Origin: Marnyiella aurantia
Lineage (GTDB): Bacteria; Bacteroidota; Bacteroidia; Flavobacteriales; Weeksellaceae
Length of the DNA stretch: 64,000 nucleotides
NCBI RefSeq assembly: GCF_014041915.1
Contig: NZ_CP059472.1
Location: 372,001 to 436,000 of the forward strand
Reading direction: 5' to 3'
Shown: in pieces, positions 8,947-27,811 of the stretch
Layout: each line of letters begins with the position of its first letter
Position numbering within the stretch: position 1 is the stretch's first letter
Translations under genes and position numbers: made by a program
The notes under the pieces: model-generated
Told to the model about the DNA's origin: nothing
Databases searched by the model: none
The model's input: the letters and a program-made list of their open reading frames with translations, nothing else

Positions 8947-10122
8947 TTGGCCATTGAATTTAAGGACCGGCATTCGGGTAATGATCTGAATATTTTCTCG
9001 GAGCTAGCCGCGAAAGCAGAACAGTACGGGGCCATTAATCTGGCGCAGGGTTCGCCTGATTATGCTCCGGACAGCAGGCTGACTGAATTTTTGCAGCAGG
9101 CCATCCACCATGATATGAATGCCTATGCTTCAGCCTGCGTACTGCCCCTTATGCAGGAAAAGCTGATCAGGTTTAATCTGAACAGGCCAAAACCAATTTC
9201 TGTTACCGAAGATGAAGTAACGCTGGTTCCGGGAGCCACCTACGGAATGTATGTGGCCTTTGCAAGCTTTCTGGAACCCGGCGATGAGGTGATCATTATT
9301 GAACCCTGTTACAATACCTACGTTCCGGCAGTGGAAATCAGGCGCGCGCAGCCGGTTTTTGTACAGATGCCCAATTCAGAAATTCCCTGGGAGCTTATAC
9401 AGCAAGCCATCACTCCCCGTACAAAAGCCATCATCGTCAATTCACCTAATAATCCGACCGGTAAGGTTTGGGATCCGACCGACTGGGATCTCCTTTGGGA
9501 GCTCATTAAGGATACGGATATCATTGTAATTTCTGATGAAGTGTATGACCTCTTATGTTATGACGGTTGCGAATTCCTGAGTGCCAGCCACCATCCGGAA
9601 ATCGCGCAGCGGTGCTTCTGCATTTACTCCTTCGAAAAAATGTTTCATATTTCCGGGTGGAAAGCCAGTTATATCATCGCGCCGCCGGAGTACACCGCAG
9701 CGTTCAGAAAGATTCACCAATACCTCACATTCACGGTGAATGCCCATGCGCAGTTTGCGCTGGGGAATTTTCTACAGGTTTTCGACGTAAATCAGAACAG
9801 GGAATTGTTCCGGGCCAAGCGCGATTTGTTTTGTGAACTGTTTACAGGATTACCTCTTGAAATTCTACAAAAAGCCGAAGGCGGTTACTTTCAGACCTTA
9901 AGCTTTTGCCGGCAGACATTTCCTTACACCGACCGTGAGTTTGCCGAATTGCTGATCCGTGAGGCAAAGGTGGCCTGTGTACCCTACTCCGCTTTTTATC
10001 ATGACGGCAGGGACACGGGACAGTTACGGTTTTGCTTTGCAAAAAAGGATGAGACGCTGATCCGGGCAGCAGAACAGTTGAAAGAATTTTTCGCGAAGAA
10101 TTTAAGCACCGAAACGGTTTGA
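8947..10122 (+). CDS. PLP-dependent aminotransferase class I/II (methionine/kynurenine aminotransferase-like)
   Basis: 391 residues starting at a TTG codon. No other start is possible, because an in-frame stop lies at 8923 and the next Met is residue 57, inside the fold. Fold type I motifs: 'GAINLAQGSPDY', 'PGATYGMY', 'NSPNNPTGK' (PLP-binding Asn), 'ISDEVYDLL' (Asp/Tyr), and the Schiff-base Lys231 in 'SFEKMFHISGWK'. It resembles methionine and kynurenine aminotransferases; the substrate is inferred. A run of ten A lies just before the start and no Shine-Dalgarno is visible. A decayed copy of its last ~22 codons recurs at 18632-18697, across the adjacent island. Confidence 0.88.
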   Translation: MAIEFKDRHSGNDLNIFSELAAKAEQYGAINLAQGSPDYAPDSRLTEFLQQAIHHDMNAYASACVLPLMQEKLIRFNLNRPKPISVTEDEVTLVPGATYGMYVAFASFLEPGDEVIIIEPCYNTYVPAVEIRRAQPVFVQMPNSEIPWELIQQAITPRTKAIIVNSPNNPTGKVWDPTDWDLLWELIKDTDIIVISDEVYDLLCYDGCEFLSASHHPEIAQRCFCIYSFEKMFHISGWKASYIIAPPEYTAAFRKIHQYLTFTVNAHAQFALGNFLQVFDVNQNRELFRAKRDLFCELFTGLPLEILQKAEGGYFQTLSFCRQTFPYTDREFAELLIREAKVACVPYSAFYHDGRDTGQLRFCFAKKDETLIRAAEQLKEFFAKNLSTETV

Positions 10123-10236
10123 GAACAAAAAATCTTCAACAGACGGTGACATGGCCGATGGAGCAAGTTTGCCTACCTGTTCCCAGCAGATTCGGAAGGG
10201 TTGATTTTAAATAATCTTGGATTACTATTTTAGTCA

Positions 10237-10266
10237 CGCGATTGGAATCGCGCGGTAGCGCGGATT
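10237..10266. repeat. REP-like palindromic element
   Basis: Two overlapping hairpins can form: CGCGATT-GG-AATCGCG (10237-10252) and AATCGCGC-GGTA-GCGC(G)GATT (10246-10266). The core CGCGGTAGCG recurs in inverted orientation at 18510-18519 near the other island end. Confidence 0.5.
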
Positions 10267-10327
10267 AGAAAGGTCAGTTAATTTTATAAGGCAACAATAG
10301 ATAAGTAAATGGGCTTAAAATGAGGGC

Positions 10328-10349
10328 ACTTGGGGACTTGGGACTTGGG
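10328..10349 (+). repeat. Three short tandem ACTTGGG copies
   Basis: ACTTGGG occurs at 10328-10334, 10336-10342 and 10343-10349. It is a small repeat with no known function. Confidence 0.5.
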
Positions 10350-10560
10350 ATTTTGCAGCAGGGATTTTCGTAGTGGTGCCGTGTAAATTATTTCCGCCCT
10401 CTTCCGCCTTTTCTATCGTATTCTGCACTTTGTTTTTTTGGAGACGAGACTATTCCCTTGCCTAATTGATTCTCAAAGCTGGTTTCTATGTAAAATACCT
10501 GAATGCCGGTTCAGATGCTAAATAATATTGAATATAACTAATATGGTCTTAACAACTGAA

Positions 10561-10833
10561 TTAGAAGCCAAGTTCTGGTTTGTTTTTTGGCGAGTTTGAC
10601 AAATACATCTGATAATGTGGTAACTCTGGCTTATCCTCATCCAAAGAATGAACTAAAATATTTTTAATATAACTTTTGACAGTGTATATATTTGGATCAA
10701 GTTTACTGGCATTAAAATGTTGCCTTTCATAAAACCAAAATATATCCATTCTTCTCTCTCTATGTTCAGCACTTGTAAAAGGATTTTCGGTTTCTCCGTC
10801 GAAATATAGGTATTGGGAATATGATAAGATCAT
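10561..10833 (-). CDS. Hypothetical 90-residue protein at the end of the Zorya-like operon
   Basis: A compact soluble 90-residue protein rich in Tyr, Asn and charged residues ('YSQYLYFDGETENPF', 'RRMDIFWFYERQHF'). I recognise no domain. It begins 95 bases after the helicase stop on the same strand, with A+T-rich base use like the rest of the island, so it may be the fifth gene of the operon (inhibitor, sensor or toxin-like partner) or an unrelated small gene. No promoter of its own could be identified with confidence. Confidence 0.5.
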   Translation of the reverse strand: MILSYSQYLYFDGETENPFTSAEHRERRMDIFWFYERQHFNASKLDPNIYTVKSYIKNILVHSLDEDKPELPHYQMYLSNSPKNKPELGF

Positions 10834-10928: not shown

Positions 10929-13900
10929 TTATTCGATACCTAAAATTTCCACAAAATTATCAACTCCCTCGATGCTTGCAATATCGCCGATCGATTTGCC
11001 CATTATTGATTTTGCTAATGGTTGTGTAAATAAAACTTCGCGTATACCACTTTTTTGATTTGTTGACATGGTTTGTGGAGAAACTATTTTAAATACATAG
11101 ACCTCGGCTTTATTGTTGTATTTCACTTTTACGGTTGAATTAATTTCAACAACTGATTTGCTCTCTTCCTTTAAAATAATATCCTCTTCAGGAAATAATG
11201 AATCAATACTTTCCTGCGGTAATTGAGGTTCTACTTCCGGAGAATTGTCATCATCAGTTTCTACGATAATGTCATCTGTAAAAGGTTTTTCCGAATCTGA
11301 TCCTTGGGCAAACATATCTATTGGTTTCGGACTCCTTACCTCATTAATGAAATCAATTAATTTCTGCAATTCGTACTCTGGATTACGCCACCAATTTGTG
11401 CTCCATATTCTGTGGAATTTAAAACCATGAGATTCTAGAATTTTTTGACGATGGAAATCATAAAGATATGCTTCATTACTAGAGTGGAATTTTGCTCCGT
11501 CACACTCGATGGCAATAACAGGTATTCCTGAGATTTTAAAATCAATAATCATGTCGATTCTAAAACCGCCGATTTTGTGTTGTAATTTAATAAAGTCTTT
11601 AAACTCCGTTTCTAATAATCGGTTGTAAACTTCTTCCTCGAAATATGATTCTAATTTATCTTCCTGCGATGAAATGCTATCTGAAGATGCAGGATTATTA
11701 TGAGCAAGCGCTTGTAACACTGAGATACGTGCATTATCGTCTTTTTCTGATACTGCTTTTGCATAGGCCAAATATGCCATGAGCGGAGCCTTGCCGTGGT
11801 TAGTGCCAGCAGTTGCTAAATCTGATTTGTAATTCAGAATGTGATCTTCAGGAATCGATGTAATAATGTAATTTTTGTATTTTGCCCTGGTCACAATTAC
11901 GTTCAGTAATTTATAGCCTTTTTGGTTATTCAATTGTCCAAACATTCTTGTAAACCTTCCTTCAGAAGTAGTGCCATAGGTGGTGGACATAATTATTATA
12001 TCCCTTTCATCTCCCTGTATGTTCTCAAGATTTTTTATGAACATACCGTCCTTCTCAAATTCATCTAATTTTTTTATAAAATCTTTATCCTTGCCAACTT
12101 GCTTAATCTGTAAAATTTTGGTTTGTATTAAGTCTCTCTGTTTGATGTTGAAAGTGGCAATTCCGACTGACGGATATTTGCCCACGGAATTTTTGTGAAT
12201 ATTATTTTTTAAAATTGAGAGTACGGTTTCCGCTTCCTTCTCATTAGTATTAGATTCATAAACCCCATGGACATTTACATAAGTAATTGGTGTATAATGA
12301 CTTGAAATAGGTAGTGAAACTAATTTTTGGGCATAAAATGCATAGTTACTGAAATCAATTAAATACGGATGCTGTGAACGATAATGAAAATTGAGATGTT
12401 TATTTTGGAAATTTAGTTCTGTAACAGCATCAAGGAGAGATATCGAAGATAAAAGAGCAGACTCAACTGATGTCTTATCCTTATTTGCAAACTGTTGTTC
12501 CTCATCATCTTCTTCGCTATCGAGTTCCCCTGCAATTAGTTTTTTATCAAAAAAAGATGAGGGTGGCATCTGATGTTCATCTCCTGCAATTATAATTTGT
12601 TTACCCTTCAAAATTGCAGGTAAATTATCTTCTAAACGTAACTGACTGGCTTCATCAAATACAACAAAATCAAAGTAACCATTTTTATTATGAAATAAGT
12701 TTGATGCAACATCAGGGGTTGTAAGAATGATTGGGTTCAATTCTGTAAAAAGATCAATGTCTTTTTCAATGATGTAACGGAGAGAATATCTTCTATTACC
12801 TGCAGAACCACGCAGATTAAATAAATTATTTACTTGAAAATCAGGAGATTTAGAATTAAACAATTTTACAGTATTCTGCTGTCTTCCATACCAAATATTA
12901 TTAATATTTTCAATTTGTGAAGCACTAAAATCATTTGACGATTTAATATACTTTTTCAATTGAGACTCCTCTGTAGGTAAGGTATCGGAAGCCTTTTCTT
13001 TCAATAGCCTGTCAAAATAGTATGACAAGAAATAATATTCCCAATTCTCCTCATTTAGAATTTGCTTGAAAATCTCTTGTTCCTCTTTTGAACGTTTTTC
13101 AAAAAAATTAAACCATTTGTATGCACTTGTAAACGCATTAGGATATTTAGCATTAATCTCCTTGACCTCTTTTAGTCGTTGTGATACATACTCAACATAA
13201 GCGTTAAGATTTGCAGACGGTTGAAAATTATACAGATAATTATCGCTCGCAATACTGCTAGAAAGCGAATTTAGTTTATCCTGTAAATCTTGGTAAGATT
13301 CTAGGTGGGAAAACAAATGTTTATCTTTTAGTATATCTCCGTTTAGAAATTCATATTCAACCGTAGTTGTGATTGATTCTACAACAATAGCCAAACGTTT
13401 TTCTATTCTGCATAACGAAGTTTCTATATCAAGATGTGAGGCATCATAACTAAAATCAAAATTAAAATCAGGAGCATTATCTAATTTTTGTTTGACATCT
13501 GCCCACTTTATACATCTATCAGAGAAAAAATTATTAATGCTTACCGATAGACTATCTAAAATATTATGCTGATTTGTAGATAAAAATTTACGTTGTTTTA
13601 GTAAATCAATATGCTCTGCAATGCTTGCTGAACTGTTAAAAGTAAGTAGATAATTTAAGTCTAAAGAATTAAAATTCTGTTCAGCATTTCTATTAAATTC
13701 CGCTATTTTACTATCAAAAATTCTCTTAAAAGCGTACAGCGAATTCAGGTTAGTTTGAAGTTCTCTACTGTTATAAAACGGTTCAAAATTTGGGGATGAT
13801 GCAACAGAATTAACCAAAGTTCTAAATCCTTCATTAAAAAATTTTGTATCAGCAAGGGTTTGTTTTTTTTCTTGCGAGAACACGCTACCAATTTTGTAAA

Positions 13901-15767
13901 AAATTGACTTTTGTTTATTTTCATCAAGAAAATCTTGATTGTTTTGATTACGAATCGCTACATCATAGAGTTTGTGAACCAAATTGCTAAATCGCGAAAT
14001 ATCTAAATCAAAATCATTTCTTTCTTTTGCAATATATTCATCTTTAAGATTTTGAAGTAAGGCAGGTAATTCTAGTTTAGATGCTCGCAGATTTTTTATA
14101 GAGGATTCAATGCTGTCTTTTTGTGCGAATACAGTTTGATTTCTGTCCCTAACAAACTGCTCAAACAAAGAATTTTTTAAAAAAGATAAATTTTCCAGTT
14201 TTTCTTCATACGAATCTAATATTTCGGTTAGATCAGCAATGAATTTATAAGAGTTTGTAGACAAATACTTTTCCTTGTTAATGATTGTAATTTTTCCATT
14301 CTCTAAGTAATCACGGTAAATCTCCTGACCATTTTGCAGGATTTCTCTCCAATGAATATATTCTTCATAGTCGAATTTAAACGGCGCTACTGATCGTATT
14401 TTAAGTGAATCATTACCACTATGGCGATGGTTCTGTAAATATTTACCTACTATATGCGTCCAATTATATTTCGCTAATAACTCCTGACCAATACTTTCAT
14501 GTTGTACATTAATTTCCTCAATAATTTTATTGATTAGATTAAGTGACGCTTTATAGCGAAATGGTGCATTAGGACTTGCATTGGCAAGTTGCCGCAGATG
14601 AGGAATCTTATTGCGGAGAGAGGAAACAATAGATTGCCGAGCCTTCGAAGCATCTACTATCATTGCGGTGTGATTAGATAAACCAACCTTTTCCAATGAT
14701 TTCTGAAGTACATCTAATGCTGTGTGCTTTTCGCAAACTACAATACTTTTTTTGCCATTTTCCAAAGCATTTATAAGTAGGGCTGTAAGCGTCTGGCTTT
14801 TTCCTGTACCAGGAGGCCCCTGAATAACTGTATTTCTAACAGTAGCCAATGAGTTAAGAAATGATTGCTGAGATGGATCTGTTTTGATGGATGTTACAGA
14901 TTGAAAAATGTTATCTTCCAGAGGGTCTTGAACAATCTCTGTACCTGCCAATTTTAGCAACTCTTCATAATCCTTAATAATACTATGTTTTTGTATTTCA
15001 AAATATGAAAACAAGCCGGAACAAGATAAAATACTGTTCGTATCATTTAAGGCAAGGTTTTCACAATGTTCTTCTGTGGGAATTGACGTAATTGTAGAAA
15101 AAATTTCGTCTAACTTTTGATCAATATCTGCGATTTTAGAAATGTTTGTTGCTATTAAAACATCTTTACAAACCTTCAATAACTCTTGCCTTGAAATTAT
15201 CCCATCTTCTAGCATTTCAGCGCTTAGCGGATCTAATAAGATTTCAGAATCTGCCTGAAGGTGGTTGATTAACACCTCATTTAAATAGATTGTAGCATCT
15301 TCATCTTTTATGATAATCCAGGAATCATTTTTTTTGGAACGTTGCAAAGTAAGTTTCCAAATAATGAGAGGCGCTACTGTTAACTTCTTATCCTTTCGAT
15401 CTTTCCGGATTAATAAAGGAAATCCAAAACCAAAGGTTTCGACACCTTTTTCCTGTTTAATAACTTTAACCTGGTTAAAGAGATTGGTAAAAGTTTTACT
15501 AATGGTTGTAAACTTTTTCTGTTCGCCGGTACTTAAATTGAACAAGTCTATTTCCTTATCCTTCCAAGAGATTTCAAAATTAAATTTTGCCTTTGTAAGC
15601 AATTTCTCTAAAAATTCCGAAGGTATATTTTCATCAATAACTGATAAAATATTAAAATCAAGTTTGTAACCAGATTTTTTTGGCAAGGCGTTAAGGTGGG
15701 TAGATAATCTATTACCAACTTTTAAGCGGTTTTGAAGTTCTTGTAGAAATGGTAATGATAGTTTCAT
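10929..15767 (-). CDS. SF1 (UPF1-like) helicase fused to a Vsr/DUF559-like nuclease and a Gre-like C-terminal domain
   Basis: 1612 residues. Walker A GPPGTGKS lies at 317-324 and the DEAS Walker B at ~1038, with a ~700-residue Asn/Lys/Leu-rich, mostly helical insertion between them. Later helicase motifs include 'NIQGDERDIIIMSTTYG' (~1250) and 'VIVTRAKYKNY' (~1290), the AAA_11/AAA_12 pattern of UPF1-like SF1 enzymes. Residues ~1370-1470 look like a PD-(D/E)XK nuclease of the Vsr/DUF559 type, with 'FRIDMII' and 'IAIECDGAKFHS'. The last ~70 residues ('PLAKSIMGKSIGDIASIEG') resemble the C-terminal domain of GreA/GreB. It begins 33 bases after the HNH gene and is the probable effector of the ZorAB-like motor: DNA unwinding plus cleavage. 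The substrate is unknown. The described ZorD is instead an SF2-type helicase. Confidence 0.85.
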   Translation of the reverse strand: MKLSLPFLQELQNRLKVGNRLSTHLNALPKKSGYKLDFNILSVIDENIPSEFLEKLLTKAKFNFEISWKDKEIDLFNLSTGEQKKFTTISKTFTNLFNQVKVIKQEKGVETFGFGFPLLIRKDRKDKKLTVAPLIIWKLTLQRSKKNDSWIIIKDEDATIYLNEVLINHLQADSEILLDPLSAEMLEDGIISRQELLKVCKDVLIATNISKIADIDQKLDEIFSTITSIPTEEHCENLALNDTNSILSCSGLFSYFEIQKHSIIKDYEELLKLAGTEIVQDPLEDNIFQSVTSIKTDPSQQSFLNSLATVRNTVIQGPPGTGKSQTLTALLINALENGKKSIVVCEKHTALDVLQKSLEKVGLSNHTAMIVDASKARQSIVSSLRNKIPHLRQLANASPNAPFRYKASLNLINKIIEEINVQHESIGQELLAKYNWTHIVGKYLQNHRHSGNDSLKIRSVAPFKFDYEEYIHWREILQNGQEIYRDYLENGKITIINKEKYLSTNSYKFIADLTEILDSYEEKLENLSFLKNSLFEQFVRDRNQTVFAQKDSIESSIKNLRASKLELPALLQNLKDEYIAKERNDFDLDISRFSNLVHKLYDVAIRNQNNQDFLDENKQKSIFYKIGSVFSQEKKQTLADTKFFNEGFRTLVNSVASSPNFEPFYNSRELQTNLNSLYAFKRIFDSKIAEFNRNAEQNFNSLDLNYLLTFNSSASIAEHIDLLKQRKFLSTNQHNILDSLSVSINNFFSDRCIKWADVKQKLDNAPDFNFDFSYDASHLDIETSLCRIEKRLAIVVESITTTVEYEFLNGDILKDKHLFSHLESYQDLQDKLNSLSSSIASDNYLYNFQPSANLNAYVEYVSQRLKEVKEINAKYPNAFTSAYKWFNFFEKRSKEEQEIFKQILNEENWEYYFLSYYFDRLLKEKASDTLPTEESQLKKYIKSSNDFSASQIENINNIWYGRQQNTVKLFNSKSPDFQVNNLFNLRGSAGNRRYSLRYIIEKDIDLFTELNPIILTTPDVASNLFHNKNGYFDFVVFDEASQLRLEDNLPAILKGKQIIIAGDEHQMPPSSFFDKKLIAGELDSEEDDEEQQFANKDKTSVESALLSSISLLDAVTELNFQNKHLNFHYRSQHPYLIDFSNYAFYAQKLVSLPISSHYTPITYVNVHGVYESNTNEKEAETVLSILKNNIHKNSVGKYPSVGIATFNIKQRDLIQTKILQIKQVGKDKDFIKKLDEFEKDGMFIKNLENIQGDERDIIIMSTTYGTTSEGRFTRMFGQLNNQKGYKLLNVIVTRAKYKNYIITSIPEDHILNYKSDLATAGTNHGKAPLMAYLAYAKAVSEKDDNARISVLQALAHNNPASSDSISSQEDKLESYFEEEVYNRLLETEFKDFIKLQHKIGGFRIDMIIDFKISGIPVIAIECDGAKFHSSNEAYLYDFHRQKILESHGFKFHRIWSTNWWRNPEYELQKLIDFINEVRSPKPIDMFAQGSDSEKPFTDDIIVETDDDNSPEVEPQLPQESIDSLFPEEDIILKEESKSVVEINSTVKVKYNNKAEVYVFKIVSPQTMSTNQKSGIREVLFTQPLAKSIMGKSIGDIASIEGVDNFVEILGIE

Positions 15768-15800: not shown

Positions 15801-16544
15801 TTAATTTATGTTTGCGCGGATTTGTTCAAACTCCAATAGTTGTGATAATCCTTCTAGAGCAAATTTCTTTTGATGATGATCGTCAACTTCTGAATGGCAT
15901 TTTACGCAAAGGCACTGGAGGTTACTGCGCTGATTGTCTGTTTTAACACCACTAATATGATGAGTATGCAGATACTTATAATGTTGTTCATTGTTGGCTT
16001 TATAACCGCATTTCTCGCATGTAAATCTTTTCAAATCCCGAAAACAATGGGAGACCTGGCGCCAATTTATAATGTAACCTGAAGAATCTACCAACGTTTG
16101 TTTTGTTCTGCTACTTTCTTCTAATGCTAAGATAAAATTATTGAAGGTATTAGTACCCATTGAAATTTTATAGTGGTTGCGAAGGTGTTTTGCACACACC
16201 TTACAAATCTGAAGTTCCGCCTGAACGTGTTTACTCCTGTCCCTGGACCAATAATTGTTTCGTGAGGAATTTGCTATTTGCATTTTAAAACCTTTTTCCT
16301 CAGTTGTTTCACATTGATAGATATGTAGTGCCGGGGTGGATGCGTAGGTGATATCTTTATATTGAGGTAGAAATGCTCCAAGACGTACCATGCCATTGTT
16401 TTTAGTTCTTTTGAAATAACCAATTTCATCTTGTTGCAACTGCTCTCGTGATAATGTAATTTCTTCTACATCAAAGTCGTAATTAATTGTGAGCAGTTTT
16501 GAAAAATACTGTGCGGAATGCCCTTTTCTAAAATCGTAGATCAT
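15801..16544 (-). CDS. HNH endonuclease domain protein of the Zorya-like operon
   Basis: 247 residues. The C-terminal ~60 residues form a zinc-supported HNH module: C-x2-C in 'CEKCGYKA', the catalytic HH in 'YLHTHHISG', Asn in 'QRSNLQCLCVKCH', a second C-x2-C in that segment, and a final His pair. The first ~165 residues are unassigned and contain a further C-x2-C ('ICKVCAKH'). It overlaps zorB by four bases (ATGA), so translation is coupled. Type II Zorya also pairs ZorAB with an HNH protein (ZorE), but that one is about twice as long and has no helicase partner. Probably a DNA nickase or nuclease. Confidence 0.8.
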   Translation of the reverse strand: MIYDFRKGHSAQYFSKLLTINYDFDVEEITLSREQLQQDEIGYFKRTKNNGMVRLGAFLPQYKDITYASTPALHIYQCETTEEKGFKMQIANSSRNNYWSRDRSKHVQAELQICKVCAKHLRNHYKISMGTNTFNNFILALEESSRTKQTLVDSSGYIINWRQVSHCFRDLKRFTCEKCGYKANNEQHYKYLHTHHISGVKTDNQRSNLQCLCVKCHSEVDDHHQKKFALEGLSQLLEFEQIRANIN

Positions 16545-17248
16545 TTCGTAGATAGATTTTTTTGAAGTTCTTCGTTTGATGTATTGATTCTAAACTCAAC
16601 TCTTCTAGATTTATTTAAATCAATTGACTGATCTGTCTTACTTAATGCCGAAATTTCGCCTTCTGAATTTAATGCCCTAGAATAAGACATACCATTTGCA
16701 GTAAGTAGAAAATCCAGTTTTTCTTTTTGTGCAGGAGGCAAAGAGTTGTAACTCTCCAACGAACGGATATAGGAAAGAACAGATTGTGCCCGGGCAGATG
16801 ATAAATTTAAGTTGTACAAGTAACTTTCTGTTTGATCCTTCTTCGGTGCAATCGTATCTGTGTGACCTTCAATTCTAATTTCACTTATGTATGGCAAATT
16901 GTCTTTATTCAAAAGAATCTGTTGGTATTTTGGCCAAATATCAGCCACTTTAGATTTGAATGACGGTGTCATTTCAGCAGAACCAATTTGAAATAACTCA
17001 TCCGTTTTATTGATGTTATCTTGCAAAAATTTAAGGGACATATCTTTATCAAGTTCCACATTTTTACTTTTGAAATCTTTTTTTAGATCCTCTCCAATAG
17101 CATTATAAATATCATCTTTTACTATTTTGTCTGATATACCTTCCAAAATGTAGGCTACTGCAATGAATAAAAAGATAATAGCCAATCCCGTCATGATATC
17201 AGAATAGGCGATGAAGTTATAATCTCCTTTAGAACGCGGTCTAGCCAT
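16541..17248 (-). CDS. zorB: ZorB-like stator protein: MotB-type transmembrane segment plus OmpA peptidoglycan-binding domain
   Basis: 235 residues in the MotB/ZorB layout: a short basic cytoplasmic N-terminus, one transmembrane helix (residues ~17-36) opening with Asp17 in 'YSDIMTGLAIIFLF', a linker, and an OmpA-like domain ('EIRIEGHTDT', 'NLSSARAQSVLSY', 'SRRVEFRI') that binds peptidoglycan. In MotB and ZorB the Asp at this place carries the ion that drives the motor. The ATG lies inside the last 8 bases of zorA. A flagellar role is unlikely because no other motility gene is near. Confidence 0.88.
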   Translation of the reverse strand: MARPRSKGDYNFIAYSDIMTGLAIIFLFIAVAYILEGISDKIVKDDIYNAIGEDLKKDFKSKNVELDKDMSLKFLQDNINKTDELFQIGSAEMTPSFKSKVADIWPKYQQILLNKDNLPYISEIRIEGHTDTIAPKKDQTESYLYNLNLSSARAQSVLSYIRSLESYNSLPPAQKEKLDFLLTANGMSYSRALNSEGEISALSKTDQSIDLNKSRRVEFRINTSNEELQKNLSTK

Positions 17249-18401
17249 TTGCTACTGCTTTTAAGTTTTGGTCGATCAATCTTGGAATTGCCTCATAGTG
17301 ACGTTTAAACATTTCATCCATCGATGCCATCGTTTGCGAAATACCCGTCATGTATAATCTTTCTTCCTCTGCATCAATATGTTTTAACTCTGCTAATTTT
17401 GCAATCAGAAGTTCAATATTAACACGCAGATTGGCTATAGCCTGCAGCTGGGTTCTAGTAGTTTGAAGTTCGGAGTTAAATTCAATTACACTACTTTTTA
17501 TCGTAGCGGAGGCCTCATTAAGATTAGAAGTTATTTGGACAAATTTTTCATCCTTAACCATGACAGAATTTAAAGCATTTACAATGTCGTAGAGGGAACT
17601 GTTTTGAGATAAAAGATTTGCGTTAGTGTTTACAATTTTCTCTAAATTAGTGTTAATGTCGTTAGTGTGCTGAACAATTTTTTCATATCGCTCTGCAAAA
17701 TTTTCGATATATGCCTTGTTTTCTTTTTGCCAATTATTAAGACTTTCAATAGAGTTAGTTAATTCCGAGAAATTCTGTTTTACTAGCAGTCCTAAAGTAT
17801 CTCTAAAACCGGAGTTTAAATCTTCACAAACTTCTTGTAATGCTTCAATCAAAGCATCATGATTTGAAGTAGCCAAATTTTCTCCAAATTTTGAAAGATT
17901 ATCAGCCAATTTTTTATTTGACTCTTGAATTTTGGAAATTAGATCGTCAGAAAATGCTCTGTTCAATGTTGAAATTCCTCGGCTTAAATCTGCTAAAAGC
18001 ATATTTGATTTTTGCATTTCCTCTAGTTCCGGGGAGGCAGGTGGTTGTATATCTCCATATATATTGAGAATTCTGTTTACTCTTTGCTTATAAAAAAGTG
18101 AAAATATTAGACCGATAATTGTTACTAAAAATGCAAAGCGTAATCCTGAAAGAAGATCTTTTACGCTAGACTTGATTTGACCAGCATCAGTATTGAAATT
18201 TAGAAGCCCAAGGAAAATTCCGGCACAAGTACCCAAAAGACCGATAGTAACAAATGTTGAGGGCGCATTTTCAAGTTCGTAGTAATTTATCAGTTTTCGG
18301 CTTTCTGGTGACTTTGCCTTTGAAATCAACGTTTCGTAGTAGATTATGAAGGCAAGCATTATAAAGCCTGCGCCAATCATTATTAAAAGTTCGTAGTTCA
18401 T
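17241..18401 (-). CDS. zorA: ZorA-like motor channel (MotA/TolQ/ExbB superfamily) with long helical tail
   Basis: 386 residues. Three hydrophobic segments (about 3-22, 49-68 and 86-105) form the proton-channel core with small-residue-rich helices ('TIGLLGTCAGIFLGLL'). Residues ~115-380 are a long polar, helix-forming tail. This combination of a MotA-type core, an extended cytoplasmic tail and an OmpA-domain partner is what marks ZorA rather than ExbB or TolQ. In Zorya, ZorA5-ZorB2 is an ion-driven rotary complex thought to sense envelope disturbance and signal through the tail. It is the first gene of the operon. A 12-base palindrome lies ~10 bases upstream of the start. Confidence 0.87.
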   Translation of the reverse strand: MNYELLIMIGAGFIMLAFIIYYETLISKAKSPESRKLINYYELENAPSTFVTIGLLGTCAGIFLGLLNFNTDAGQIKSSVKDLLSGLRFAFLVTIIGLIFSLFYKQRVNRILNIYGDIQPPASPELEEMQKSNMLLADLSRGISTLNRAFSDDLISKIQESNKKLADNLSKFGENLATSNHDALIEALQEVCEDLNSGFRDTLGLLVKQNFSELTNSIESLNNWQKENKAYIENFAERYEKIVQHTNDINTNLEKIVNTNANLLSQNSSLYDIVNALNSVMVKDEKFVQITSNLNEASATIKSSVIEFNSELQTTRTQLQAIANLRVNIELLIAKLAELKHIDAEEERLYMTGISQTMASMDEMFKRHYEAIPRLIDQNLKAVANG

Positions 18402-18410
18402 ATTATTTGT

Positions 18411-18422
18411 TTATTCGAATAA
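18411..18422. promoter_or_regulatory. Palindrome in the zorA leader, possible operator
   Basis: TTATTCGAATAA is a perfect 12-base palindrome ending 10 bases before the zorA ATG. On the minus strand a weak -7-like TATTTTTA lies just upstream. A dimeric regulator could bind here; none is encoded in the island. Confidence 0.35.
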
Positions 18423-18631
18423 TTCATAAAAATATTTGACGTTTTATCGTAAAGGTTGATGGTCACCCGCTGCGCAAAGTCTCCTAACTTTGAGCCATTC
18501 TCAATTGCCCGCTACCGCGGGATCCGTCACTGAAATGTGATATAAACAACATGGTTATTTATCAGTTTCGCAATGTGACTGACCGAATATTTACACGGAA
18601 TGAATATAAACATTTATTTTGAATCATCGAA
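18423..18631. other. Non-coding right end of the island
   Basis: No gene is seen. There are small hairpins CAAAGT/ACTTTG (around 18476-18493) and CCCGC-TACC-GCGGG (18508-18521). The latter shares CGCTACCGCG with the inverted copy at 10251-10260. Confidence 0.55.
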
Positions 18632-18697
18632 GGTTTTGCCAAGCAGCATGAAACGCTGATAAAGGCGGCCGAACAGCTAAAAATTTTTCCAGCAATG
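18632..18697 (+). pseudogene. Remnant of an aminotransferase 3' end
   Basis: Translated on the plus strand this reads GFAKQHETLIKAAEQLKIFP. That aligns with FAKKDETLIRAAEQLKEFFA at the end of the complete aminotransferase gene (around 10036-10100), with clear DNA similarity but many differences. It has no start, no upstream homology before ~18630, and runs into the hppA terminator. It is best explained as the old 3' end left behind when the island and a diverged gene copy arrived. Confidence 0.75.
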
Positions 18698-18700
18698 ATC

Positions 18701-18728
18701 AAAAAAAAGCGTCACCAATCGGTGACGC
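18701..18728 (-). terminator. Terminator of hppA
   Basis: The minus strand reads an 8-bp stem GCGTCACC/GGTGACGC with a 4-base loop followed by eight T. It lies 24 bases after the hppA stop. Confidence 0.85.
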
Positions 18729-18751
18729 TAATTATACAATATTCCGGTAGT

Positions 18752-21511
18752 TTAAAGTGCCAGAGCCCTGATATCTACCCTGCGGTTCATCGCCTTACAT
18801 TCGTCGCTTTCGTCTGTGGAACAAACCGGGAACTGAGGTCCGTAACCTTCTGTTTCAATACGGTCGGCAGCAATACCTAATTCCATCAGCTTCAACTTTG
18901 CAGTATCGGCACGGAGTTTAGACAGTCTCATATTGGTGTCTTCATTGCCGGTATTGTCGGTGTAACCACCCATCTTGATTTTCAGATTAGGGTAGGCTTC
19001 CATCATCTTGAAGATATTCTCAATGGCCTCTTGAGATTCGGGTTTCAAATCACTACTGCCGCTTACGAAATACAGGTTTTCTACGGTAAACCAACGGTTT
19101 TCATCCAGCAAGGTTTGGTCATTCTGTGAAAGACCCTGTGCGAAATAGTTCAACCGGCTGTTTTCACCCAAATTAATCACCTGTCCGTTTGGTAAGGTTA
19201 CCGGTGTGATGTTTCCCGTATCATACACAAAATCACCATCGGCATTAAGCATTCCTGTAGGCTCAGGCATTACGGCAACTACGCCCGGTGCTCCCGGTAC
19301 GGCAGGTGCCGCAACGTGTGCGCCGTTTACAGCAGTACCGTTGGAGGCCAGTTGCAGTGCCTCTAATTTAGCTGCGCGGTTATCGCGAATCTGATCTGCA
19401 TGCATAATGGCCAGTGTAGGTGCTATAACCAGCGAAACAATAGACATCAGTTTGATAAGAATGTTCATGGACGGTCCGGACGTGTCTTTGAACGGATCAC
19501 CCACGGTATCCCCGGTTACGGAAGCTTTGTGCGGTTCGGAACCTTTGTAGAAAGTCTTACCGTTAATATCAACGCCTTTCTCAAATGATTTCTTGGCATT
19601 GTCCCACGCGCCACCGGCATTGTTCTGGAACATTCCCATAAGTACTCCGGAAACCGTGGCGCCCGCCAGGAAGCCACCCAGGACCTCAGGCCCGAAAATA
19701 AAACCTACCAGTAGTGGTGAAACAATTGCGATGGCTCCCGGAAGCATCATCTTCTTAATGGATGCATCAGTAGAGATAGCTACACACTTCTCATACTCCG
19801 GCTCGCTGGTACCTTCCAGGATTCCCGGAATTTCGCGGAACTGGCGGCGAACTTCCTCCACCATTGCCATAGCGGCCTGTCCTACGGCTGTAATGGCAAG
19901 TGACGAGAATATAAATGGAATCATAGCGCCTACAAACAGACCGGCAAGTACGTCTGCACGGTAAATATCAATGCCGTCAATTCCCGCAATACCTACAAAG
20001 GCTGCGAAAAGTGCAAGTGCGGTAAGCGCGGCAGACGCAATTGCAAAACCTTTACCCGTAGCGGCAGTTGTGTTCCCTACGGCATCCAGGATATCCGTCC
20101 TTTCACGAACTTCTTTGGGAAGGTCACTCATCTCGGCGATACCACCGGCATTATCAGCAATTGGTCCGAACGCGTCAATAGCCAGCTGCATCGCTGTTGT
20201 CGCCATCATACCGGCAGCTGCAATAGCTACACCGTAAAGTCCGGCACAAAGGAATGAGCCGTAAATACCACCGGCCAAAACAAGGATGGGCAACAGTGTA
20301 CTTTCCATACCTACGCTAAGACCTCCGATAATATTGGTTGCATGCCCGGTGGAGGATTGCCTTACGATACTGCTCACCGGGCGCTTGCCCATGGCGGTAT
20401 AATACTCTGTGATGATGCTCATCAGCGTACCTACCACCAAACCTACGATGATGGCACCAAAGACGCCCATCTTCGTAAACTCGTGTCCGCGGAGAACCAT
20501 GGTTTCCGGAAGCAGGTAATTAACAAGGAAATAGGAAGATATTGCCGTAATAACAATACTTCCGTAGTTACCCAGGTTAAGTGCACTCTGAACGTTGGAG
20601 GTAGATGCACCGTCGTTATCGTTTATTTTTACGAACAAAGTTCCAATCATTGAGAAGATGACACCAGTACCGGCGATAAGCATAGGAAGTAAGATCGGTG
20701 CAAAACCACCAAAGGCATCCTGAGAGAATGTTTCGCGGCCCAAAACCATAGTCGCAAGCACCGTGGCTACGTAGGAGCCGAAAAGGTCGGCACCCATACC
20801 GGCAACATCGCCTACATTATCGCCTACGTTATCGGCAATCGTGGCTGGGTTACGCGGATCGTCTTCGGGAATTCCAGCTTCCACCTTACCTACAAGGTCG
20901 GCGCCCACGTCGGCAGCTTTGGTGTAAATACCACCGCCTACCCTGGCAAAGAGTGCAATACTTTCGGCACCCAGGGAGAAACCTGTAAGGATCTCGATGG
21001 TACGTTCCATCTCGTGGCTGTCCACGCCCGAATCGGGTGCGAATATCTGTTTTAATATAATAAAAAGGGTACCTAAACCTAAAACGGCAAGCCCGGCCAC
21101 ACCCATTCCCATTACCGAACCGCCGGTAAAGGAAACCTTAAGTGCTTTTGCAAGGCTGGTTTTGGCAGCTTCGGCAGTCCTTACGTTTGCTTTTGTAGCG
21201 ATCTTCATCCCGATGTATCCCGCAGCAGCGCTGAGCACCGCACCGAAAATAAATGAGATTCCGATGGTCCAGTGGGAATTACTGTTGGAAAATCCCATCA
21301 GTGCCAGAAGGATGGCTACAACAATTACGAAATAGGTTAAGATCCTGTACTCGGCATGCAAAAAGGCCATGGCCCCATCTGCGATGTGGCCGCTGATCGT
21401 TCGCATACGCTCATTGCCGGCATCCTGCTTGCTCACCCAGGCACTCTGAACAAAAGTGTAAATCAGGGCAATGATGCCGAATATGGGCACCAAATAAAAC
21501 AAATCCATCAT
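18752..21511 (-). CDS. hppA: Membrane-bound ion-translocating pyrophosphatase with C-terminal OmpA-like domain
   Basis: 919 residues. Residues ~1-730 are a multi-span H+/Na+-PPase with the diagnostic catalytic stretch '[15 protein letters not shown]' and '[19 protein letters not shown]'. The '[10 protein letters not shown]' signature has Ala where K+-independent enzymes have Lys, which suggests the K+-dependent class; these often pump Na+ in Bacteroidota. A Pro/Ala-rich linker follows, then an OmpA-like domain over the last ~130 residues ('[19 protein letters not shown]', 'GYGPQFP', 'MNRRVDI'). M-PPases have their C-terminus outside, so the extra domain would reach the peptidoglycan. The soluble pyrophosphatase gene lies directly upstream. 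Confidence 0.95.
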
Positions 21512-21657: not shown

Positions 21658-22269
21658 CTACCCGCCGAATTTGCTGGCGTAATCTCTTCTGGAAGCTTCC
21701 ACAACTTCTTTGGCATGAGCAGCACCATACACTTCCTGAATCCTGCATTTCGCAGGTTCATCCGGAAGGTTTTTGTAGGTAAGGAAGTAGTGCATCAGAC
21801 GTTTCACCTCGGCCTGAGGCAACTCTGCAATATCGCGGAAATGCCCGAAAGCATGGTCGCCCACCATTACAGCTACAATCTTATCATCAGCTTCACCTTT
21901 ATCAATCATCTTGAAACCGCCGATTGGGATGGCCTCCATCAGCATACCGCCGGAATGGATATTGTGTGAGCTAAGTACGCAGATATCCAAAGGGTCATGA
22001 TCGCCCATGGTTACATCTTCAGCCCCACTTTCCAGTGCAAGCTTCAACACTTCATTATGACAATACGTCCTTGGTACAAAACCATAAAGTGCGGGAATAA
22101 TGTTCGAAAACTGCTGCGGACGGTCTACTTTAAGGTAACCGCTGGCCTTATCGACCTCATATTTTATGGTATCACTTGGAACAATCTCTACAAAAACGTT
22201 TACAACGTTTGGAGCGTCGGCACCGGCAGAGATGCCATGCCAGGGATGTGCTTTAAAATTTGGTATCAT
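21658..22269 (-). CDS. ppa: Inorganic pyrophosphatase, family I (soluble)
   Basis: 203 residues from the ATG at 22269 (MIPNFKAHPWHG); an ATG two codons upstream is possible. The metal-binding signature appears as 'DHDPLDICVL', a variant of the usual DGDPLDVLV, with further acidic residues 'DKGEADDK' and 'KNLPDEPAKC'. It hydrolyses cytoplasmic pyrophosphate to phosphate. Its product-sharing neighbour hppA uses the same substrate to pump ions, so the cell here keeps both a wasteful and an energy-saving route side by side. Confidence 0.93.
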   Translation of the reverse strand: MIPNFKAHPWHGISAGADAPNVVNVFVEIVPSDTIKYEVDKASGYLKVDRPQQFSNIIPALYGFVPRTYCHNEVLKLALESGAEDVTMGDHDPLDICVLSSHNIHSGGMLMEAIPIGGFKMIDKGEADDKIVAVMVGDHAFGHFRDIAELPQAEVKRLMHYFLTYKNLPDEPAKCRIQEVYGAAHAKEVVEASRRDYASKFGG

Positions 22270-22293
22270 TATCATTTGAATGTTAAAATAGTA

Positions 22294-26119: not shown

Positions 26120-27811
26120 TTACAGCAATAAAGTGAGCGGCTGTTCCAGATAAGTTCTCAGCGTTTGCAGGAACTGGGCTCCGGTTGCACCGTCAACTAC
26201 CCTATGGTCACATGCCAAGGACAGTTTCATGGTATTGCCCACTACAATCTGTCCGTCCTTAACCACCGGTTTCTCAATAATTGCCCCAACGGACAGAATT
26301 GCTGAGTTCGGCTGGTTGATGATGGAGGTAAAAGTTTCGATACCGAACATTCCCAGGTTTGAGACAGAGAAGGTAGAACCTTCCATTTCGTTTGCCTTCA
26401 GTCCTTTTGATTTTGCTCTTGAAGCCATATCCTTAACAGCGGAAGATATCTCCAGGTAGTTCATACGATCCGTGTTGCGGAGCACAGGAACCACAAGACC
26501 GTCCGGAATTGCTACGGCTACCCCAACGTTGATGTCGCCATGGTGAATGATTTTATCGCCTGCCCAGGAAGAGTTCACCTGTGGATGCTTGCGCAATGCC
26601 ATAGCCGTGGCCTTGATGATCATATCGTTAAATGAAATCTTTGTATCCGGCAGTGAATTGATCTCTTTACGGGCCTCAATTGCCTTATCCATATTGATCT
26701 CCACCATCAGGTAGTAATGAGGAGCCGAGAATTTACTTTCAGCAAGACGTTTTGCGATTATATTCCGTACCTGTGAGTTAGGTGTCTCGGTAGTTTCACC
26801 TGAAACGAAATCAGCAGCCACTTTCGTAGCAGGAGAAGCCTGTTGAGTTGCTTTCGCCTGATCTGCAGAAGAAGATTGCTTAGCAGGAGTATAAGATTCG
26901 ACATCCTTTTTCACGATCCTGCCGTTTTCGCCTGAACCCTGAAGCTGGTTAACGTCTATTCCTTTTTCCGCTGCCATTTTTTTGGCGAGGGGTGAAATAG
27001 CAAGACGCTCGCCATCATTACTTTGTGATACTTCCGCTGTTGCCGTATCCTCTTTAATTTCTTTTGGTTTTTCAGCAGCTGCTTTATTTTCAGATTTTGT
27101 GGTCCCTCCCGAAAGAATTGCCGACACATCTGCTCCCACAGGTCCGATGATCGCCAAAACAGAATCTACAGGACCACCGTTACCTTCAGCAACACCCTGG
27201 TGCAGAAGTGTGCCGTTAAATTCGGATTCGAAATCCTGTACAGCCTTATCGGTTTCAATTTCAGCCAGAATATCGCCTTCCTTTACCTCATCGCCTACAT
27301 TTTTATGCCACTTGGCCACCTTCCCTTCAGTCATGGTATCCGACAGGCGGGGTACTGTAATCACTTCTACACCTTTTGGAATTTCAGCCGAAGCTGAAGA
27401 AGTTCCTTCATTTGAAGATCCGCCTTCTTTCTCGACAGGCTCAGTAGTTTCTACTGCGGTATTTTCATTTTCAGTTTTAAAATCTTCGGGAATTCCTGAT
27501 GCCGAACCAGATTCAGGCTTTTCCGAAGTTGCGCCAGTGCTTCCTTTGCCAGTTAATGAAGAAATATCCTCGCCAGGCTCCCCAATAATGGCAAGTACAG
27601 AATCTACCGGTGCGGCCTGTCCTTCCTCTACACCAATGTAAAGAAGTACTCCCTTCACCTCAGATTCAAAATCCTGAACGGCTTTATCTGTTTCAATTTC
27701 TGCTAAAACATCACCCTCGTTTACGGGATCGTTGAGTTTCAGGTTCCATTTTGCAACTTTACCTTCCGTCATGGTATCGGACAGACGGGGCATTGTAATT
27801 ACTTCTGCCAT
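26120..27811 (-). CDS. pdhC: Pyruvate dehydrogenase E2, dihydrolipoamide acetyltransferase
   Basis: 563 residues: two lipoyl domains (about 1-76 and 150-225), each with the lipoylated Lys in 'EIETDKAVQDFES'; Ala/Glu/Ser-rich linkers; a peripheral subunit-binding domain near 270-307 ('SPLAKKMAAEKGIDV'); and the acetyltransferase core from ~335 with catalytic His in 'DHRVVDGA'. It moves the acetyl group from E1 to CoA and forms the core of the PDH complex. The E1-alpha gene lies directly upstream. E1-beta and E3 are not in the window. Confidence 0.95.
   Translation of the reverse strand: MAEVITMPRLSDTMTEGKVAKWNLKLNDPVNEGDVLAEIETDKAVQDFESEVKGVLLYIGVEEGQAAPVDSVLAIIGEPGEDISSLTGKGSTGATSEKPESGSASGIPEDFKTENENTAVETTEPVEKEGGSSNEGTSSASAEIPKGVEVITVPRLSDTMTEGKVAKWHKNVGDEVKEGDILAEIETDKAVQDFESEFNGTLLHQGVAEGNGGPVDSVLAIIGPVGADVSAILSGGTTKSENKAAAEKPKEIKEDTATAEVSQSNDGERLAISPLAKKMAAEKGIDVNQLQGSGENGRIVKKDVESYTPAKQSSSADQAKATQQASPATKVAADFVSGETTETPNSQVRNIIAKRLAESKFSAPHYYLMVEINMDKAIEARKEINSLPDTKISFNDMIIKATAMALRKHPQVNSSWAGDKIIHHGDINVGVAVAIPDGLVVPVLRNTDRMNYLEISSAVKDMASRAKSKGLKANEMEGSTFSVSNLGMFGIETFTSIINQPNSAILSVGAIIEKPVVKDGQIVVGNTMKLSLACDHRVVDGATGAQFLQTLRTYLEQPLTLLL

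Follow-up and report, generated by a model that had tools for sequence, protein, structure and literature searches.

The 8.5-kb block of antiphage defense-like genes that lies between the conserved neighbors aat and hppA ends on its right in a broken copy, about 65 bases long, of the 3' end of the nearby aat gene. We found this arrangement in a 64,000-nucleotide stretch of DNA (the window) from a 2.6-Mb genome, here called G000. The aat-end scar is real, it is correctly placed, and it is explained in outline; scars of this kind are already known. The remnant fixes the right edge of the island in the window, shows that the aminotransferase gene stayed intact, and bears on how defense blocks get swapped between related bacteria. 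The coding part of the insert has a low G+C content (about 0.29 to 0.37, versus about 0.41 to 0.53 in aat and hppA). Features are listed in Table 1.

Table 1. Positions in the window of the insert, its flanking genes, and the sequences at its edges
Feature	Positions	Strand	Remarks
aat, complete PLP-dependent aminotransferase, left flank, mosaic relative to G001	8947..10122	+	Pfam Aminotran_1_2, 6.4e-45
aat 3' segment matching the remnant	10036..10092	+	BLASTN
Spacer after aat, many-gapped alignment to the same site in G001	10126..10310	+	Score reached by 0/200 shuffles
90-aa ORF, left end of cargo	10561..10833	-	Weak similarities only
1612-aa protein, last gene of the operon	10929..15767	-	DUF4011, SF1-type helicase, MTES_1575 nuclease, and GreA/B-like domains
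ZorE-like HNH nuclease	15801..16544	-	PADLOC ZorE2, 7.1e-43
ZorB-like (MotB/OmpA)	16541..17248	-	PADLOC ZorB2, 2.5e-52
ZorA-like (MotA/ExbB)	17241..18401	-	PADLOC ZorA2, 2.6e-54
Diverged copy of dispersed hairpin repeat (CCGCTGCGCAAAGTC...ACTTTGAGC)	18466..18505		Also near the right edge of the G001 cargo
aat 3'-end remnant, right-hand insert junction	18632..18698	+	In-frame core 18635-18682; probable old stop TGA 18696-18698
hppA terminator	18708..18729	-	Stem of 9 pairs; minus-strand T run
hppA, membrane pyrophosphatase with C-terminal OmpA domain, right flank	18752..21511	-	Domain search

The aat remnant at the right edge of the insert

The core of the remnant translates as FAKQHETLIKAAEQLK and keeps the reading frame of the 3' end of complete aat, whose counterpart reads FAKKDETLIRAAEQLK; 13 of 16 amino acids and 36 of 48 nucleotides are identical. 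When positions 18401 to 18900 were compared with the window by BLASTN, the top nonself match was the end of aat, with 43 of 57 bases identical and one 2-base gap (E = 1.8e-4 for the 64 kb; E = 4e-6 when searched against 8947 to 10400). The next matches were the inverted repeat of the terminator itself (E = 0.007) and one at E = 0.32. Local alignment of the last 100 nucleotides of aat with positions 18402 to 18751 gave a score of 45, which was reached in none of 500 shuffles of either side (maxima of 28 and 34). Given these shuffles, along with the right frame, the right strand, and the place before the terminator, we assign a negligible probability to chance resemblance over so short a stretch; together with the comparison to empty sites described below, the shuffles rule it out.

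The details of the junction agree with much of a preliminary description of this DNA, which had noted a decayed aat 3' end here. The two copies lie on the same strand with aat upstream, 8.6 kb apart (8.5 kb had been stated). The similarity, said to start sharply near 18630, sets in at 18632; the exact GGTTTTGC there recurs at 10028, offset by five bases from the register of the remaining match. The probable old stop codon lies in the frame that complete aat would use past the 2-base gap (frame read by eye), and 9 bases separate it from the stem of the hppA terminator. The longest exact block shared by the remnant and the aat 3' end is at most 8 bases, and the identities given above bear out the view that the copies are too diverged for a recent duplication. 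Presumably the remnant itself has no function and the adjacent terminator continues to act for hppA.

We also considered whether the remnant belongs to a dispersed repeat and rejected this. In the four genus genomes searched with positions 18402 to 18760, the only nonself matches at an E value of 0.001 were a hairpin repeat and the hppA-terminator region of G001. The hairpin repeat is intergenic and dispersed, with the pattern GCAAAGTC-tcct-GACTTTG. Copies occur at G000:C1:1545132, 1546425, and 2246507 and at L031:4683, 5586, and 6332; they are clustered, and three lie within the G001 cargo. Counts for the pattern and for a reversed-pattern control were 5 and 4 in G000, 6 and 0 in G001, 9 and 0 in G003, and 12 and 0 in G002, where both strands are covered and perfect palindromes count twice, once per strand.

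The aat-hppA site in relatives

To characterize the site in relatives, we used the OmpA tail of hppA as a query and collected 80 loci from named genomes, out of 520 qualifying stretches. In 64 of the 80 loci, aat stands beside hppA in convergent orientation. The other 16 were excluded from the gap count; one contig (L125) ends 331 bp past hppA, and the remaining 15 loci have about 10 kb with no match to aat. The gap between aat and hppA is 434 bp or less in 61 of the 64 loci and 668, 939, and 1,608 bp in the other three. The preliminary description had proposed as a check that genomes lacking the island should have the aat end directly before the hppA terminator. The small gaps in 61 of the 64 loci bear this out, as do two close relatives with a small gap, G003 and G026, where no more than about 25 bases separate the aat stop from a hairpin that resembles a terminator and precedes hppA (hairpins identified by eye). 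Because the gap is small in relatives, the remnant sits where the resident aat should end. The comparison shows that the ancestral site was aat, terminator, hppA, and it upholds the remnant as the right-hand breakpoint of the island. The match to the OmpA-type tail reaches the tail end in all 80 relatives, which were fetched with the tail as the query. In a literature search for a pyrophosphatase-OmpA fusion, the pyrophosphatase phrase was absent among the matches listed.

The genome collection holds three genus-mates, G001, G002, and G003. The sister genome G001 (protein identity to G000, 92% for aat and 98% for hppA) has about 2.9 kb between the two genes (L031:3715-6634), occupied by small ORFs. 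Four of these ORFs, of 94 to 142 amino acids, were searched and had no Pfam match; some of the cargo ORFs look lipoprotein-like by eye. The aat remnant was not found at the G001 site. The first ~220 bp past aat in G001 align, with many gaps, to the spacer of the window (Table 1). Since this alignment persists despite the different cargo, an insert was probably already present at the site when the two lineages diverged. The left junction is thus probably old and common to G000 and G001, and the Zorya-like cargo may have arrived later.

The left edge of the insert is therefore not simply the aat stop, which corrects the preliminary description. A search with positions 10040 to 10560 matched only G001 (query 1 to 93) and, over a single 42-base match, G003. 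A palindrome in the spacer (10235 to 10252) is the only such site in G000 with up to 2 mismatches allowed; G001 has two sites, one at the same locus and one elsewhere with 2 mismatches. Shuffling weakly hints at terminator copies after intact aat. The score of the G000 left edge against its own right terminator was reached by 2 of 500 shuffles, and the scores against the terminators of G001 and G003 were reached by 76 and 328 of 500. For the G001 left edge, the corresponding numbers were 1 of 500 (own terminator), 3 of 500 (G000), and 131 of 500 (G003). A promoter scan returned 5 promoter-like sites at the left edge, versus 1.8 expected, and found no terminator there; at the right edge it returned 1 site, versus 1.3 expected, along with the hppA terminator. 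A scan for a Bacteroidota-type -7 motif upstream of zorA and aat gave no match.

Cargo at the site differs by genome. G000 has the Zorya-like operon, G001 has its 2.9 kb of small ORFs, and G032 has a gap of 4.8 kb. The G032 insertion (L037:2867-7669) encodes an OmpA/carboxypeptidase-regulatory protein, a DsbA-like thioredoxin, and an RDD protein. Two other loci have insertions between hppA and aat that encode an acetyltransferase (L103:10366-11975) and a glycosyl hydrolase 25 (L073:10366-11306). We sought the remnant between or beside the flanks in L031, L037, L103, L073, L050, and L033 and found nothing convincing; the best E values were 0.026 (L031) and 0.030 (L050), neither at the terminator. 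In G013 and G022, aat is also near hppA; for G014, G028, and G012, hppA lies outside the stretch fetched.

Recombination in aat and the origin of the displaced end

We compared the remnant with 80 distinct aat ends, including those of G000 and G001, taken from matches with an E value up to 1e-40 that reached residue 375 and had an FAK-like anchor, with identical ends counted once. In the list of the best 40 of the 80, the remnant is closest to the aat of G001 (38 of 48 bases), followed by its own genome's aat (36 of 48) and that of G014 (34). G026 and three other ends share 33 bases with it; G003, the hppA-proximal copy of G002, and two other ends share 32. When codons were resampled, the aat of G000 or G001 was closer than those of G003, G014, G026, L122, and G002 in 82% of cases (bootstrap value, 0.82). 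Seven of the 10 differences from G001 fall at third codon positions (P = 0.02), as do 7 of the 12 differences from the G000 gene (P = 0.07; 4, 1, and 7 by codon position). Such a third-position excess is what a copy still coding while it diverged would show. Among 48-base segments compared between G000 and G001, 38 or fewer identities occur in 132 of 549 for the gene at 26120 to 27811, 31 of 320 for the peptidase gene, 23 of 367 for aat, and 37 of 904 for hppA. The remnant's 38 of 48 identities to G001 are thus toward the low end of the range seen between the two genomes in coding DNA, yet within it.

Over these 48 bases, the remnant fits a resident allele of the G000 lineage that would have been displaced by a relative's incoming gene end. 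An old duplicate predating the split of G000 and G001 would fit less well, with much the same look over so few bases. The claim that one of the two copies came from another strain is accordingly plausible, though short of proof: the distance fits a resident allele and also an older duplication.

One such history is an old tandem duplication that placed two aat copies before hppA, after which the insert landed between them or the second copy was mostly deleted with its end left behind. Pairs of tandem aat paralogues do stand at this site in G002, G013, and G032 (L035, L036, and L037), and neutral decay of a duplicate is compatible with the 12 differences and their codon positions. However, the remnant is nearer to the aat of G001 and G000 than to the hppA-proximal copies of G002 and G013 (the latter sharing 29 bases), so the pair would need a separate, later duplication. 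In addition, G001, G003, and G026 have a single aat at the site. We consider the tandem duplication unlikely.

The intact aat gene is a recombination mosaic relative to G001. Across four other genes, the two genomes differ at 27 to 44% of fourfold-degenerate sites: 35 of 132 in the peptidase gene, 147 of 480 in hppA, 37 of 84 in the gene at 21658 to 22275 (which we take to be inorganic pyrophosphatase), and 112 of 267 in the gene at 26120 to 27811 (presumably pyruvate dehydrogenase E2). Within aat, the differences are 7 of 34 for codons 1 to 84, 1 of 55 for codons 85 to 196, 14 of 43 for codons 197 to 336, and 0 of 16 for codons 337 to 380. The longest run of identical codons in aat is 74, a length reached in none of 10,000 permutations. 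For hppA and the peptidase gene, the observed run was reached in 167 and 95 of 2,000 permutations, the latter borderline. A clear sign of recombination is seen in aat alone and is lacking in hppA. DNA has therefore moved recently within aat, either between the two lineages or from a common donor. Because the near-identical tracts stop at about 10022 and so reach neither the cargo nor the last 16 codons compared, they do not date the arrival of the cargo. They show recombination in aat, not cargo arriving along with aat.

The same tracts bear on a reversed order of events, in which an ancient insertion event generated an identical second copy, and conversion of the intact aat by G001-like DNA, together with decay, later made the copies diverge. 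This order would agree with the recent tracts and with a left spacer that looks old. Yet the last 48 bases of aat, which match G001 at 44 of 48 positions, lie beyond the tracts, so conversion does not explain the difference there. We assign the reversed order a small probability.

From the geometry of the site we infer a mechanism to which we give roughly an even chance: homologous recombination in aat combined with an illegitimate join on the right, with the cargo swapped in by housekeeping recombination. DNA of a related strain, with cargo behind its aat, would have entered the cell and paired with the resident aat on the left. The right-hand join would have formed inside the last codons of the resident gene with little or no homology. 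The incoming 3' end would have kept the aminotransferase whole, and the last ~65 bases of the resident gene would have ended up with their terminator 8.6 kb away, where the gene end decayed. Two homologous joins outside the aat end would leave no scar; a displaced end needs one join inside the resident aat end, which homology-facilitated illegitimate recombination would supply. The site would have been used more than once, given that in G001 the left spacer is related while the cargo differs and the remnant was not found. The remnant would then be the right-hand scar of defense-type cargo brought in by housekeeping recombination and not by an integrase. The right junction was seen once only, with no remnant found in G001, and the left spacer is strongly diverged from that of G001, so the insertion may predate the split. 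These points count against this mechanism, as do the small number of usable bases (48) with the bootstrap value of 0.82, the tracts that stop before the cargo, and the restriction of clear recombination to aat.

Islands in tRNA or guaA genes carry a replacement gene end. By analogy, the aat 3' end could have served as an attachment site for an element that carried a replacement end and later lost its integrase. The geometry would be the same, with an intact gene and end on one side and the displaced end on the other. Against this, five of the seven ATG-started ORFs of at least 60 amino acids in the insert were searched (the 90-aa ORF and the operon's four genes), and no integrase or transposase was found among them; the other two run antisense to operon genes. 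The two ends are also far from near-identical attachment repeats, with 43 of 57 bases matching and no exact block above 8 bases, although an old pair could have decayed. Finally, the occupied G001 site yielded no remnant. Site-specific integration is, in our judgment, quite improbable.

The site resembles integrase-free recombination hotspots, which likewise have conserved flanks, differing cargo, recombination in a flanking gene, and no mobile-element genes found. Here the flanks are conserved around a site that is near empty in relatives, and recombination is clear in the aat flank but not in the hppA flank. The published hotspot model invokes double homologous recombination at both flanks, from which no displaced end is expected; the displaced end here suggests one nonhomologous join. 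Flanking core-gene recombination as the motor of hotspots without mobile elements has statistical support (PMC5635113). Homology-facilitated illegitimate recombination has been put forward to explain orphan Rhs ends and the immunity arrays of the Vibrio T6SS, and called rare (Sci Rep 2017, PMC5361080). That case likewise has a homologous anchor on one side and an illegitimate join on the other; as described there, the anchor is in a weapon locus and the displaced immunity gene is retained, whereas here the anchor is metabolic, the cargo is defense-like, and the displaced end decays.

The core defense hotspots of Pseudomonas aeruginosa also have defense cargo of lower G+C content between core genes with no single mobilizing element (NAR 2023, PMC10250203). 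There, 83.7% of cDHS1 loci hold an immune system, whereas the aat-hppA site is nearly empty in 61 of 64 two-flank relatives. The same paper suggests flank recombination, leaves open how such sites are built, and states that transfer through conserved flanks would leave no mobile-element scars. The scar in the window is of a different kind: a 3' end has been displaced, and the flanking gene next to it is mosaic. We suggest that a remnant of this type, in which the end of a flanking gene recurs as a short, decayed copy immediately ahead of the terminator of its neighbor, could serve as a sequence signature for counting such events across genomes. A wider proposal, possible but doubtful in our view, is that the aat-hppA junction of the genus is an integrase-free defense hotspot where one-sided homologous plus illegitimate recombination exchanges the cargo. 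Every newcomer would bring its own aat end and push the old end outward, leaving a readable record of swaps.

The Zorya-like cargo

The cargo is a putative antiphage system, at most a diverged type II Zorya. Its predicted proteins lie well outside the curated core, since NCBIfam equivalog scores are far under the cutoffs (65.9 versus 700 bits for ZorA2, 75.6 versus 400 for ZorB2, and 45.8 versus 600 for ZorE). The best NCBIfam match of aat, methionine aminotransferase, scores 349.9 bits, under its cutoff of 420. Type II Zorya as described in two reports likewise has ZorA2, ZorB2, and ZorE homologs in one operon (PMC11890865, PMC8565338); unlike in those accounts, a fourth gene follows ZorE here, encoding the 1612-aa helicase-nuclease with its GreA/B-like domain at the C terminus. 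Four of the 296 family genomes, including G000, carry relatives of ZorE, and the order ZorA, ZorB, ZorE, helicase-nuclease is kept in all four (G000, G144, G211, and G178; the G178 contig holds only the first 32 residues of the helicase-nuclease). The four-gene operon is possibly an undescribed Zorya subtype and may merit more attention than the scar. Literature searches on Zorya together with the domains of the fourth gene, or with Chryseobacterium, returned no description of it among the matches listed.

In G090, G095, and G226, the fetched stretches contain relatives of the 1612-aa gene but no ZorABE matches. The 90-aa ORF at the left end of the cargo has weak relatives, at 30 to 38% identity, in 7 of 295 other family genomes.
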